A DNA stretch of 38,147 bases, taken from positions 1 to 38,147 of the IMG/VR virus record IMGVR_UViG_3300017737_000023. One strand, given 5' to 3'. The position numbers and the translations under genes were made by a program. The notes under the pieces were generated by a model. It made no database searches and was not told where the DNA came from. It saw only the letters and a list, made by a program, of their open reading frames with translations. The DNA comes from a virus. Positions 32,344 to 36,833 of the stretch are shown here, piece after piece (positions within the stretch are counted from its first letter, which is position 1; every line of letters starts with the position of its first letter).

Positions 32344-32612
32344 TATAGTTTTCCCCGCAATTGCAGGCTTTCCCAAAAAACATCCCAGGCTAATTCTGGG
32401 TGACTTACAAAATATTCTTCGTACTCGATTTTGGGGTTCTCGGTAAGCCGACAAGCAAGTGGTGGGTCCCCTAAAGACTCGTTTAAAAGACTCCACCATT
32501 CTTTGATGGATGTTCTCCGAGCAACGCTGTTCGGCTTGCCCGGAAACGCATCCCAATTCATCTGTTCTCCCTGAAGGTGGTAATCCTTCGGGCGTTCAGC
32601 TTTTCGTTTCAT
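32343..32612 (-). CDS. small Trp-rich protein, 89 aa, coupled to the primase
   Basis: ATG at 32612 overlaps the primase stop as ATGA. It starts MKRKAERPKDYHLQGEQMNW, then DAFPGKPNSVARRTSIKEWW and ends with an acidic helix (EEYFVSHPELAWDVFWESLQ). Five tryptophans in 89 residues are notable. The tight coupling on both sides (ATGA and TAATG) shows that it belongs to the replication operon. No family recognised. Confidence 0.65.
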   Translation of the reverse strand: MKRKAERPKDYHLQGEQMNWDAFPGKPNSVARRTSIKEWWSLLNESLGDPPLACRLTENPKIEYEEYFVSHPELAWDVFWESLQLRGKL

Positions 32613-35044
32613 CTGCCCCATATTTTGTTGGCGTTAAGCATGAGCTGGTGCAAATCCTCTGGAGATCGCCTCGCGGGGGGATATTGATCTGAGTGTCCCA
32701 CTGAGGCAGATCCCTTCGTATCACTAGGTTTAGCAGTGGGACACTTTACTGTTTTCGTGGGGGCTGTCCCACTGGTCTTTGATGAGTGGGACACCTTCTC
32801 CGTTTTTTGCGCTTGTCCCACTGCTTGTCCCACTGCAGAATCCGCTCCAGTATTGGGTTTAGGTGTAAGTGGGACACTTTTCTCAACCTCTCCGCGCACG
32901 CGTGTGTGTGGGGGTTGTTCAATAATCGCCTTGTAAAGCAGTGGAGCGCCCCCACCTTTGCCCTTAATCACCACCCCTTCTGAAGTTTCGATCAGCCCAC
33001 GCTTAACCCAACGCTGGAGCGACTTCCGTATAGCCGCGACATTGCCACCAACAATTGGATCCGAGTCCAACTCTGTTCTGCTGATGGATCGTGGGTAGAT
33101 GGAGCGCACCCGAGCCAAGACCCGATCACTGATCCCACTGGGTGATGTGTTGGTGCTGTCAATTTCAGCGGTGAAGTCTGAGATGGAGAAAGTCAGGTCA
33201 GATTCCTGCTTCATGATCAGAGCTGTTCCGCTACGCCCGCTGCGACTCTTCTCAACGCTGATGATCCGGCTGTGGGGCGTAGTGGCATCGTTGCTCTCTA
33301 ACTGCTTGTCAGTCGGTTCAGACAGCCTCCAAGTCTCTGTAACGGCGTCTCTGATGGCGGTAGTACCTCTAAAGCCGCCCTGCTTGTTTGCGTGGTGAAT
33401 GATCAGGATCGTGGTCGCCGGGAATAAAACCCCGTTGTTCCGCGTCAGCCAATAGAGCGGCGTAGCAAAATCCGACTTGTTTTCATCAAAGGCACGTCCG
33501 CCAGAACAACCAATCAAGGAGTCAACGATGACCATCTTTGGCTTGCGCTCTTTCATCAGAGCCTGGAACTGGGCGTAATACTGCAAATTCCAGTTGTTAT
33601 GGATCATCACGTCAGGCGTGCGAGGAAACTCAACCTCATCAAGCTGACTATCCAAATCATCCAAAGGCTGGTCACCATTCAAGATCAAACAGCCACCTTT
33701 TTGCACTGGAACGTGCTTACCCCGAACGACAAAAGGTGTTCCATTTACAACGTGCTTAGCCAGCGTCCAAGCAGCAGTTGATTTTCCTTTACCGCCTTCG
33801 GCATATATGAGAACTACAGCAGGCTTAGCAAGAACATCAGGAATTAAAAACTCACGTCCAGTTATCTTTCCTTTTAATTTATCCAATGTAAAAGATCCTT
33901 CGTCTTGTTCAAATCCTATATGGTCAGCATAAACCTGCTCAAGTTTTGCCTGATCCCTATACTTACACTCTTGAGCAATTCTATTAGCTTCAAAGTTACG
34001 TTTACCTGGGTTCGATATTTTCATAGCCTCACCCATCTGCTTCATCGCTTCTTCAAATGAAAGCGTTGCATCTCTGAAACTTATTGGTGTCTGATCGATT
34101 TCAGCCACCACCGATGCAAGATTGTCCCTTTGAAATCGGGCACGCTTTGGGTCGTAGTGGTCTGCGTAACTTATGAGGCTGCCAAAGCTCAGTCCACCAT
34201 TGGACTTAAACCCAGCTTCCCAACGCTTGAGGCATGGGTCGTCGTTCTCCCAGTCCTCTCTATATTCTTCATCCTGTAAAGACCATTCCCGCCAAATATT
34301 TAAACCATCCTCATTAGGTAACTCTGAATGAAGCATGGCTCCAATACGCCACCAAGTATCTTCAGATCCGCGTCCCTCGGGCTGAATTACGGATAAACAA
34401 GACTTTGCAATAGCAATAAGCTCTTCCCTGGAACGTGACGCATACCTAAAATCTTTTAAAGTTCTACCTTCAATTTTTTCATTATGTTCTCTAAAAGACT
34501 CCTGCATTTCTGCTAAAAGCCAACCAGGAATCTCTGGAATAACATTAATATCACCTTTAAAAACATATTCCCCGCCTTTTGGGTACGCACCGCTAATTAC
34601 ACCCTGCTTGCCCCACAAAACTTCCCAACCAGCGTTGGTTTGAGAAAGCACTAGACCTCTGACTTCATGCCAGTTCTTCTCTGGGATACGAAACAGATAT
34701 TTGGCAGCATTTTTCTTAGGTGAAATAACAACTGGAACGTCCTTAAAAGTCGTGCCCCACTTCTTTTTCAGTATTGAGAGGTTGGCGTCAACATCAAGAA
34801 TTACGAGCCCATCACTGCATGGCCCTGTATAGACACCGATCGCTTTAAAAACGTCAGGCTGTTGTTCGATATATCGGGCAGCCGCGTAAGGCCGCACAAT
34901 CCTGTGTGGTTCGGTGCCAGCCTTGTTAAGCGGAGACTTGCCACAAGCTGGGTGGCCTGTTTTTGGCAGTGGGACGCCCTTTGCGTAGATAGGCCCAGTA
35001 GCCCAATTTTCAGGCAAAGAGCGGACAAATTTGACGAGATCCAT
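32609..35044 (-). CDS. primase-helicase (prim-pol + RepA-like ATPase)
   Basis: An 811-aa multidomain protein. Residues 1-180 form a bifunctional primase/polymerase domain with GLVILDVDANLS (Asp84 and Asp86 as metal ligands) and the segment SPKKNAAKYLFRI, where the usual His of this motif is replaced by Lys. Residues 215-300 resemble a primase C-terminal helical domain (WWRIGAMLHSELPNEDGLNI). Residues about 390-620 are a RecA/RepA-like ATPase with Walker A AEGGKGKST (near 412), Walker B KMVIVDSLIG (near 504) and LIIHHANKQGG. About 640-700 is a winged-helix-like part. The last 110 residues are Ser/Thr/Lys/Pro-rich and disordered; the DNA there carries seven copies of AGTGGGACA. It should load and unwind at the origin and make primers for the PolA. 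Confidence 0.9.
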   Translation of the reverse strand: MDLVKFVRSLPENWATGPIYAKGVPLPKTGHPACGKSPLNKAGTEPHRIVRPYAAARYIEQQPDVFKAIGVYTGPCSDGLVILDVDANLSILKKKWGTTFKDVPVVISPKKNAAKYLFRIPEKNWHEVRGLVLSQTNAGWEVLWGKQGVISGAYPKGGEYVFKGDINVIPEIPGWLLAEMQESFREHNEKIEGRTLKDFRYASRSREELIAIAKSCLSVIQPEGRGSEDTWWRIGAMLHSELPNEDGLNIWREWSLQDEEYREDWENDDPCLKRWEAGFKSNGGLSFGSLISYADHYDPKRARFQRDNLASVVAEIDQTPISFRDATLSFEEAMKQMGEAMKISNPGKRNFEANRIAQECKYRDQAKLEQVYADHIGFEQDEGSFTLDKLKGKITGREFLIPDVLAKPAVVLIYAEGGKGKSTAAWTLAKHVVNGTPFVVRGKHVPVQKGGCLILNGDQPLDDLDSQLDEVEFPRTPDVMIHNNWNLQYYAQFQALMKERKPKMVIVDSLIGCSGGRAFDENKSDFATPLYWLTRNNGVLFPATTILIIHHANKQGGFRGTTAIRDAVTETWRLSEPTDKQLESNDATTPHSRIISVEKSRSGRSGTALIMKQESDLTFSISDFTAEIDSTNTSPSGISDRVLARVRSIYPRSISRTELDSDPIVGGNVAAIRKSLQRWVKRGLIETSEGVVIKGKGGGAPLLYKAIIEQPPHTRVRGEVEKSVPLTPKPNTGADSAVGQAVGQAQKTEKVSHSSKTSGTAPTKTVKCPTAKPSDTKGSASVGHSDQYPPARRSPEDLHQLMLNANKIWGR
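32694..32876. repeat. iteron-like cluster: seven exact copies of AGTGGGACA in 183 bp
   Basis: Copies are at 32735, 32785 and 32868 (read on +) and at 32694, 32765, 32814 and 32826 (read on -), each 9 bp. Centre-to-centre distances are 41, 30, 20, 29, 12 and 42 bp, close to whole helical turns. The copies lie in the coding sequence for the disordered primase tail but in different frames, giving VGQ, VGH, SGT, CPT, VSH and VPL. The conserved unit is therefore the DNA, not the protein. Single or near copies occur at 2212 (exact), 912, 34968 and 35666 (8 of 9). A replication origin or regulator-binding array is the best explanation. Confidence 0.75.
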
Positions 35045-35192: not shown

Positions 35193-35783
35193 ATGCCATT
35201 TCTTTCCAAAAAAGCCTCATCTGCAGTAGCAGGCAGCGGCGACCGTCCTTATCTAAATCCTTCCAAAATTCCTTCCGGCGAGACTGTTCGCTTTGTTCTG
35301 CTTAACGACCAACCCATTGAGTTCTACGAGGTCTGGGGTTTATCTACAGACGGCGAAGAAAAAAAGAAGGCGTTCCGTTTTGTGCAAGATCCCACTTCAG
35401 AAGAAATTGAAGCTGAAATGGGCGACAATTTTGAACGCCGCGTAGGTTTTGATGGCGAAACTGTTGAGCCAGCTAAAATGGCTGTTGCTGCTCCGGTTTA
35501 CAACTACACGACCGCAAGAGTTGAAGTAATGCAAATTACTCAGAAGAGCATCCTTCGTGAGTTGGATGGCATCTCCCAAATGGAGGATTACTCCAATCTG
35601 CTAGAGCACGACTTTGTTCTTGGCAAAGAAGGCTCAGGCAAAGGGAGTGAGTACAGCTTGCGTCCTGTCCCACAAAAGAAAGGCAGTGAAAAGACAACCA
35701 AAGCTGCCTGGGACGACGTCTTAGAAGCTGGTTTCGACATTGATCGAATGCTGGATGACGGCAATCCGTTCAGTGCTGAGTAA
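35193..35783 (+). CDS. probable ssDNA-binding protein
   Basis: A 196-aa acidic protein. The order is MPFLSKKASSAV, a strand with GETVRFVLLNDQPIEFYEVW, an acidic middle (PTSEEIEAEMGDNFERRV), strands with VAAPVYNYTTARVEVMQITQ, a helix with KSILRELDG, then a Gly/Ser turn and the acidic end DDGNPFSAE. The 'v.nY....vevmqitQksI...l' block is typical of phage OB-fold ssDNA-binding proteins. An acidic C-terminus with a Pro-Phe near the end recalls the protein-binding tail of SSBs. It is the first gene of the rightward replication operon, next to a nuclease, and is followed by its own terminator. Confidence 0.65.
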   Translation: MPFLSKKASSAVAGSGDRPYLNPSKIPSGETVRFVLLNDQPIEFYEVWGLSTDGEEKKKAFRFVQDPTSEEIEAEMGDNFERRVGFDGETVEPAKMAVAAPVYNYTTARVEVMQITQKSILRELDGISQMEDYSNLLEHDFVLGKEGSGKGSEYSLRPVPQKKGSEKTTKAAWDDVLEAGFDIDRMLDDGNPFSAE

Positions 35784-35851: not shown

Positions 35852-36043
35852 ATGCCTGATCGTCACTACGAAAAACCTTTACCAGAGACGATCACCACAA
35901 TCTTGGAAGACGGCAGAGTTTCAATTTCAGTAGGAAATATCACCGGAATTGTTAGTTCAATGCACTTGATAGAACCCAAAGCTCATCAGCTACAAAAAGC
36001 TTGGCTCAAGAATCAGATGGATTTGGTAGATGCAAGCAACTGA
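35852..36043 (+). CDS. small protein of unknown function, 63 aa
   Basis: ATG 35852. It reads MPDRHYEKPLPETITTILED, then GRVSISVGNITGIVSSMHLI and a helix ending with KNQMDLVDASN. Two strands plus a helix are expected. It overlaps the nuclease start by 14 bp, so translation is linked. No family recognised. A replication or recombination accessory role is inferred only from its operon. Confidence 0.6.
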   Translation: MPDRHYEKPLPETITTILEDGRVSISVGNITGIVSSMHLIEPKAHQLQKAWLKNQMDLVDASN

Positions 36044-36833
36044 TTCCCAAAATGCACTAGCTGGTTTACGCCGCTGGACCCTGGAGCGTGATGACTCTGG
36101 TCCGCACCGTGTGTATCGCGATGAGTCTGGTGTGTCTTACGCCTCAGTGACACACATCCTGAAAGAAACCTCACCCCAATGGCAGAAAGATGCACTCGAC
36201 CGCTGGCTGGAACGCCCAACTGCTCCCATGGAGCGTGACATTGCTTGCCAGCGTGGCACTTTGGCGCACAATCACGCGGAATATGTCCTCAAGACGGCAG
36301 CAAAGCTGGCGCGACAGTCTGCAAACAAGCGAGGTAGCTGGAGGGCTGGAGATGACGGCCTGGAACGTGCCCCTAAAGGAATCACTAGCTGGGCAATCGA
36401 AAAAGCCATTCAAGGGGCTCCTAGGGTCTCCTGGAGTGCCTCTGGGTACGCCCGAGGTCTACGGTCTTGGATCGGAGAGAACGTAACGGCTATCCATGCC
36501 ATCGAGTTCTCCATTCATGACCCACGAGGCTGGGCTGGAACGGCTGACGCCCTTATCGACCTAGATGGAAAACTCTGCATCGCTGATTGGAAGACCAGCG
36601 TTAATGCCCGTAGTGAAGAAATGTTGTCAAACTACATCTGCCAGACCGGAGCATATTCTCTGGGATTGCAGCACCTGACCGGGCTTAAGCCTAAGTGTGG
36701 AGCGGTTGTAGTAGCTCGGCGCAGCGGAGCACCACAGGTCCGGTTGCTCAGTGAGTTAGAATTACGCGGGGCGGAGTGTCAATGGTTAGAGAGAATGAGC
36801 CTTTATACGGCCCAGCAAGCCCTAAAGAACTAA
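36030..36833 (+). CDS. PD-(D/E)XK nuclease (RecB/Cas4-like exonuclease)
   Basis: A 267-aa protein with all motifs of phage PD-(D/E)XK exonucleases. The N-terminal motif is RGTLAHNHAEYVL (Arg75, His80). The core is IEFSIHDPRGWAGTADALID (Glu159 and Asp173), then ADWKTS with Asp186 and Lys188 as metal and catalytic residues. YICQTGAYSLGL with Gln205 and Tyr209 is the QxxxY motif. Such nucleases act in recombination, replication-end processing or host DNA degradation. Its place after the SSB-like gene supports a role in phage recombination or replication. The start at 36030 overlaps the previous gene. The last 52 bp overlap the following gene. Confidence 0.9.
   Translation: MQATDSQNALAGLRRWTLERDDSGPHRVYRDESGVSYASVTHILKETSPQWQKDALDRWLERPTAPMERDIACQRGTLAHNHAEYVLKTAAKLARQSANKRGSWRAGDDGLERAPKGITSWAIEKAIQGAPRVSWSASGYARGLRSWIGENVTAIHAIEFSIHDPRGWAGTADALIDLDGKLCIADWKTSVNARSEEMLSNYICQTGAYSLGLQHLTGLKPKCGAVVVARRSGAPQVRLLSELELRGAECQWLERMSLYTAQQALKN

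Follow-up and report, generated by a model that had tools for sequence, protein, structure and literature searches.

A symmetric array of inverted iterons in a phage primase-helicase gene: a likely replication origin and its probable self-encoded initiator

In this work, we analyzed the whole 38,147-base IMG/VR virus record IMGVR_UViG_3300017737_000023 (hereafter, the window), in which the gene of a putative replication initiator overlaps a cluster of short inverted repeats. The features of this locus are as follows:

32609 to 35044, minus strand: gene of the predicted 811-aa initiator, with primase, helicase core, winged helix and disordered tail (domain and structure searches)
32927 to 33142, minus strand: winged-helix DNA-binding domain, residues about 635-706 (AlphaFold models and fold comparison)
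33026 to 33028, minus strand: codon of Arg673, the fifth recognition-helix residue, which covaries with iteron positions -2/-1
32669 to 32920, minus strand: codons of the disordered C-terminal tail, residues 709-792 (pLDDT <50), overlapping the array
32694 to 32876, no strand assigned: iteron array, the seven-site form of an eight-site symmetric array (site coordinates and comparison with relatives)
32868 to 32876, plus strand: iteron s1, outer and gene-proximal, exact AGTGGGACA
32826 to 32834, minus strand: iteron s2, exact AGTGGGACA
32814 to 32822, minus strand: iteron s3, an inner site that is optional in relatives, exact AGTGGGACA
32785 to 32793, plus strand: iteron s4, exact AGTGGGACA
32765 to 32773, minus strand: iteron s5, exact AGTGGGACA
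32735 to 32743, plus strand: iteron s6/s7, exact AGTGGGACA; of two sites, both present in L060 and L281, one is retained
32694 to 32702, minus strand: iteron s8, outer and distal, exact AGTGGGACA

The primase part of the protein carries an AEP-like DhD motif (VILDVD) and a PriCT_2 domain at residues 213-294. The AAA_25 domain (residues 386-556) forms a RepA/RecA-like helicase core, and the best structural matches of this core in the AlphaFold model include RSF1010 RepA (1nlf, 1olo, 1g8y). The winged helix comprises, in the AlphaFold models, helices 635-648 and 656-660, the recognition helix 669-682 and a wing at 685-706; fold comparison returned generic matches only, with no named family.

Within 183 bp, inside codons ~723-784 of the 811-aa gene, the 9-mer AGTGGGACA occurs seven times without mismatch, three copies in one orientation and four in the other, at start-to-start distances of 41, 30, 20, 29, 12 and 42 bp, as the initial annotation had reported. 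The copies mostly alternate in orientation, as inverted pairs, and the claim that they fall in different reading frames also held, all three codon phases being used (SVPL, AVGQ, AVGQ, VSHS, SGTA, CPTA and SVGH). A scan of the window found an extra exact copy at 2212 and 24 matches with at most one mismatch; 100 dinucleotide shuffles gave 7.3 ± 2.75 and never reached 24. The array is the densest 9-mer cluster of the window, and after shuffling the 1.4-kb region, no 9-mer reached three copies within 260 bp. No second array, comparable to the ori and crr of P4, was seen in the window or in 10 further contigs of 37-56 kb, each with one array cluster.

Viral contigs were scanned with the best 80 matches kept per query, and a single scan yielded 387 matching relatives; together with five genome contigs, all the scans supplied 155 distinct relatives, with 54 representatives at 85% identity. 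When these relatives were searched for the cluster at the same position of the gene, at least four sites (xGGGACA or xTGGACA) were present in 146 of the 155, most of which have six to eight, and the array is kept at 45-70% protein identity. The only relative without GGACA sites (L126) was considered as a case of array loss and rejected as such, since six copies of a motif of its own, ATGCGACA, occupy the same place. The order, orientation and spacing of the sites are kept while the motif switches at all of them together (AGTGGGACA, AATGGGACA, AGGGTGGACA, AGGGGGGACA and others). It varies by lineage and is shared by the sites within one genome, some genomes being less uniform: the window has AGTGGGACA, L011-L014, L051 and L054 have AATGGGACA, L015, L018, L021 and L041 have AGGGTGGACA, L016 and L060 have GGTGGGACA, L073 has AGGGGGGACA, and AGGCTGGACA is common in L019, L025 and L067. 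Between the window and L011-L014, the same single base differs at all seven sites and the rest is identical (56/63), with tail columns outside the iterons 68-70% identical. Megablast found no close phage relative of the window, and the records of cultured phages gave only weak protein matches, to S-EIV1 and S-CBS4, neither of which is a close relative or has such a 9-mer cluster.

As three codon phases and both strands are occupied, the concerted change of the sites reflects selection on the DNA. This had been argued from the reading frames alone, in preference to selection on the protein, and the relatives agree with it, both in switching their motifs in concert with the geometry kept and in the position of their arrays. 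Among the 146 relatives, the array lies inside the frame in 95, straddles the stop codon in 35 and is mostly or wholly 3' of it in 16; where the protein has 715-770 aa (L281, L256, L059, L221, L188, L192, L201 and L348), the array straddles or follows the stop. The initial annotation would have given up its proposal had, among other things, relatives kept the tail and lost the 9-mers; the opposite was found, short proteins keeping the array outside the coding frame. Because of these short-protein relatives, the array is best seen as a DNA element that the gene has probably overprinted, and the tail as a reading frame extended over this element. A chance cluster, or a repeat at the protein level in the tail, would fit the location of the sites inside a coding region, but the three codon phases on both strands, the shuffles, the concerted switching and the non-coding copies in relatives make it so improbable that it can practically be disregarded. 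Phage lambda also has its origin iterons inside an initiator gene, O, an arrangement found here in the window and in 95 of the 146 relatives and not in the other 51. However, lambda O is not known to be a helicase or primase and its origin consists of four direct iterons and an AT-rich element with no known inverted array, whereas an inverted array and a helicase-primase occur together here.

Reading in the gene sense and measuring between GGACA starts, the full eight-site array, as in L281, is - 45 + 13 + 14 - 22 + 14 - 13 - 45 +, and thus its own mirror image. The window, with - 46 + 12 + 25 - 24 + 26 - 45 +, has seven of the eight sites and one half about one turn longer; the inner sites at 13-bp spacing are optional (26-27 = 13 + 14). 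The distances from half to half are near 66, 75, 88, 99, 109, 132 and 143 bp, with one at 116 bp. Their periodogram over 38 representatives peaks at 11.1 bp (R = 0.75), a periodicity that null models with uniform or in-frame steps matched in at most 1 of 2000 draws (p about 0.0005). Half distances quantized at ~11.1 bp therefore support family-wide the earlier idea, drawn from the window, that the sites are phased at near-whole helical turns.

The identity of the binder was approached through the association between motif and protein residues. Residue 673 shows the strongest one (rank 1 of 655 testable columns, z 19.2): arginine is found with TG-GGACA in 26 of 27 representatives, lysine with GG/AG-GGACA in 8 of 9, and Q, H, G or T with T-GGACA in 12 of 12. 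On a tree built from protein residues 330-625, the motif class changed at least 15 times and no independent pair was opposed, the five well-supported pairs being too few for significance alone. In the count of co-changes on branches, column 673 came out on top of 657 (p 2.3e-7), followed by wing residue 699. Since the three motif classes had been defined with the data in view, we ran the tests again on raw bases and with the tail left out; over 561 columns, 673 came top for positions -1 and -2, 699 for -3 and 698 for -4, and wing residues 698-700 follow motif positions -3/-4. For position -1 alone, 673 was not among the top five columns in branch co-change, where 699 and 680 lead, and the winged-helix columns as a whole were not enriched in the raw-base test. 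Exceptions to the residue code are L108 and L034 (R with T; outside the representatives), L179 (K with TG), L048 (R with a mixed motif) and, by eye, the Anabaena plasmid (R with TTGGACA). A recognition helix that follows the inner bases and a wing that follows the outer ones is the pattern expected of a winged helix.

Self-binding of the array by the primase-helicase is strongly supported in statistical terms, by the modelled winged helix and by the covariation of residue and motif, and the binder is most likely the initiator's own winged helix, not a ribbon-helix-helix protein. The latter, an RHH_1 protein of 84 aa, is encoded two genes downstream of the initiator, and the array could be its centromere-like or repressor site. 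No RHH match was found beside the array in many relatives, L070, L055 and L054 going straight to the DNA polymerase, and the motif covaries with the winged helix of the initiator. As its gene was not found beside many arrays, we rejected this protein as the array binder and regard the corresponding reading as highly improbable.

The palindrome of sites also fits a long hairpin or cruciform as the selected feature, acting as a single-strand origin or RNA structure with the repeats as its arms, as proposed for pRN1 and BIP-1. In favor of this possibility, the strand folds far better than its dinucleotide shuffles (z -6.65 in the window and -10.1 in L015), and with the sites fixed and the spacers shuffled the mean z is still -1.46, with 30 of 38 values negative. 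However, the inverted sites themselves account for most of the folding, extra pairing in the spacers is lacking in many arrays, and no Rfam match was obtained. Besides, one motif is common to all sites of a genome and not only to mirror partners (flank identity 0.475 for partners and 0.411 for others), and its changes track a protein residue. The stem-loop was rejected as the primary feature, being mostly a by-product of the inverted sites, and we find its selection in its own right quite improbable.

Other observations concern the surroundings of the initiator gene. A 196-aa protein (35193-35783, plus strand; no Pfam or PHROG match) is encoded divergently from it, and a PD-(D/E)XK exonuclease at 36030-36833 (plus strand); both are present beside the initiator in most relatives. 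In the window, we counted 24 copies of the octamer CTGGAACG/CGTTCCAG (often CCCTGGAACGt), e.g. at 36360, 36905, 37018, 37279 and 37552, where 1.0 would be expected; the 54 representative loci, e.g. L015, L086 and L048, have 260 copies against 16 expected. Its strand bias is 216 to 44, with CGTTCCAG on the primase-sense strand and, in the window, regardless of gene direction; it is possibly a Chi-like or other polar recognition sequence. Several relatives also have other dense repeat clusters, different in sequence, ~4-5 kb upstream from where the initiator gene ends (relative to the end of the initiator match, -4846 to -4776 in L072, -4202 to -4088 in L050 and -4813 to -4660 in L053).

Regarding the function of the array, replication origin is the most economical role, since the binder is fused to a helicase and a primase, there is one array per contig in ten further contigs, and most relatives with enough flanking sequence have a family-A DNA polymerase gene downstream. 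As in iteron origins, short repeats are clustered near an initiator gene, and the initiator has a DNA-binding domain matched to them, statistically, through the winged-helix model and covariation. We consider it highly probable that the protein encoded by the overlapping gene has its binding platform, and most likely its replication origin, in this array. The array also occupies the gene's 3' end, and the genes downstream of it, on the same strand, lead to the DNA polymerase; as the winged helix is moreover a common repressor fold, the array might instead be an operator by which the initiator controls its own message or the downstream replication genes and not the start of replication. Yet the array keeps its place next to the winged-helix codons in relatives whose downstream genes and distances differ, up to eight symmetric and helically phased sites exceed usual operator needs, the binder is fused to replication enzymes, and analogous arrays adjoin plasmid AAA_25-wHTH genes. 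As a substitute for the origin, an operator seems unlikely; as an additional role, it is possible. The switch of GC skew expected at 32.8 kb was absent, cumulative skew turning near 28.5 kb, where gene orientation changes; we discarded GC skew as origin evidence, as this turn tracks gene orientation. No AT-rich unwinding element was found at a fixed place, AT-rich stretches being mostly downstream at variable distance.

From the sites, models and covariation, we infer that replication would start at the array as follows. The C-terminal winged helix of the 811-aa initiator would attach the protein to each 9-mer, R673 of the recognition helix reading the TG immediately 5' of GGACA and the wing contacting bases further 5'. 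On each of the two mirror-image half-arrays, which lie a whole number of helical turns apart, a helicase-primase assembly would form; the two assemblies, head to head and presumably hexameric, would open the strands, prime the DNA and depart in opposite directions, followed by the phage family-A DNA polymerase in bidirectional replication.

The phage system belongs to none of the known systems tested, from which it is set apart by its RepA/RecA-like helicase, its PriCT_2 primase and a symmetric array that usually overlaps coding sequence. In P4 alpha, the helicase is of the SF3 type and the origin repeats lie outside the alpha coding sequence. The present array, in contrast, overlaps the initiator's own codons, and PriCT_2, AAA_25 and a RecA/RepA-like fold are found instead of TOPRIM and SF3. 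Both have primase, helicase and C-terminal winged helix in one chain, the winged helix here coming from model and covariation; in P4 alpha, one polypeptide with a TOPRIM-type primase, a helicase and a winged helix binds the origin repeats, then unwinds and primes (PMC4234260). RSF1010 has a RepA-like helicase fold, a primase and iteron binding as well, but in three separate proteins, RepA, RepB' and RepC (PMC4234260), and not in one. SaPI Rep and SCCmec Cch2 recognise iterons directly downstream of their own genes by a C-terminal domain (PMC7581432). They belong to other helicase families, their origin is 3' of the gene, whereas the present array is mostly inside, and they are not known to have such a palindromic eight-site geometry or a one-residue code. 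For the pRN1 and BIP-1 proteins, binding to motifs 3' of the respective gene has been proposed, the motifs themselves being left unidentified (PMC4234260). pRN1 ORF904 and the BIP-1/BPP-1 replication protein differ in their SF3 helicase and in an element described as a stem-loop; the array region is foldable, mostly through its inverted sites. In BPP-1 (L353:1108-1212), we found only four copies of AACGAGGCAA, as two inverted pairs, downstream of the replication protein gene, ~470 bp 3' of bbp29 and beyond the small gene bbp28. The CyRepA1 plasmid Rep family (Prim-Pol and PriCT_2, then a DEXD-type helicase) was discarded, as only the N-terminal third is similar and the helicase here is AAA_25; CyRepX1/2 are a different family, since they are described as resembling DEXDc/HELICc helicases (PMC10899382). 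By analogy, the best reading is a self-encoded initiator with a cis-embedded origin, which would work like P4 alpha, SaPI Rep and pRN1.

Analogous clusters of 9-mers in both orientations were found in five cyanobacterial plasmids, directly after the wHTH codons of an AAA_25-wHTH gene, either within the gene, across its stop or shortly after it (L352:3417-3636, L358:4154-4418, L361:3765-4041, L360:3845-4014 and L362:3835-3910). pANACY.03 has ATTGGACAA, TTGGACAA eight times, Nostoc HK-01 plasmid3 has AGTCAACA, Nostoc C057 p057_I has AACCTAACAC, Aulosira plasmid4 has AACCTAACA just behind the stop, and Synechocystis B12 has CTAACACC, a weaker case; the motifs of the last three are related, and their wHTH sequences look similar by eye. 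The protein of pANACY.03, through which alone the other four plasmids were found, matches part of the window protein at 27% identity and differs from it in having no PriCT_2 match, and the plasmid arrays differ from the phage array in motifs and spacing. These clusters are candidate plasmid origins and lend independent support to an origin role of the phage array; two Gloeothece plasmids and the CyRepA1 plasmid showed no clear array.

Open-access literature yielded neither experiments on these genes nor a description of such a system, and novelty is provisional because it rests on this search. With this provision, we lean towards a class of one-gene replicons that is widespread among phages and cyanobacterial plasmids and hitherto undescribed. 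In it, a ring helicase with a winged helix, plus a primase in phages, would be paired with a symmetric, helically quantized array of its own sites right after the codons of the DNA-binding domain. Initiator and origin would travel and switch specificity as a unit, under a code at residue 673 of R for TG, K for GG/AG and Q/H/G/T for xT. The array, if it is the origin, would give a concrete origin and initiator to a large group of uncultivated viruses (the 387 IMG/VR matches of one scan), and candidate motifs for the type of initiator-origin contact for which the pRN1/BIP-1 model named none. The coevolution of initiator and origin would become directly testable through the variation that exists in nature at a single residue and a single dinucleotide, and inverted 9-mers directly after winged-helix codons may be a route to the origins of AAA_25-wHTH plasmids.
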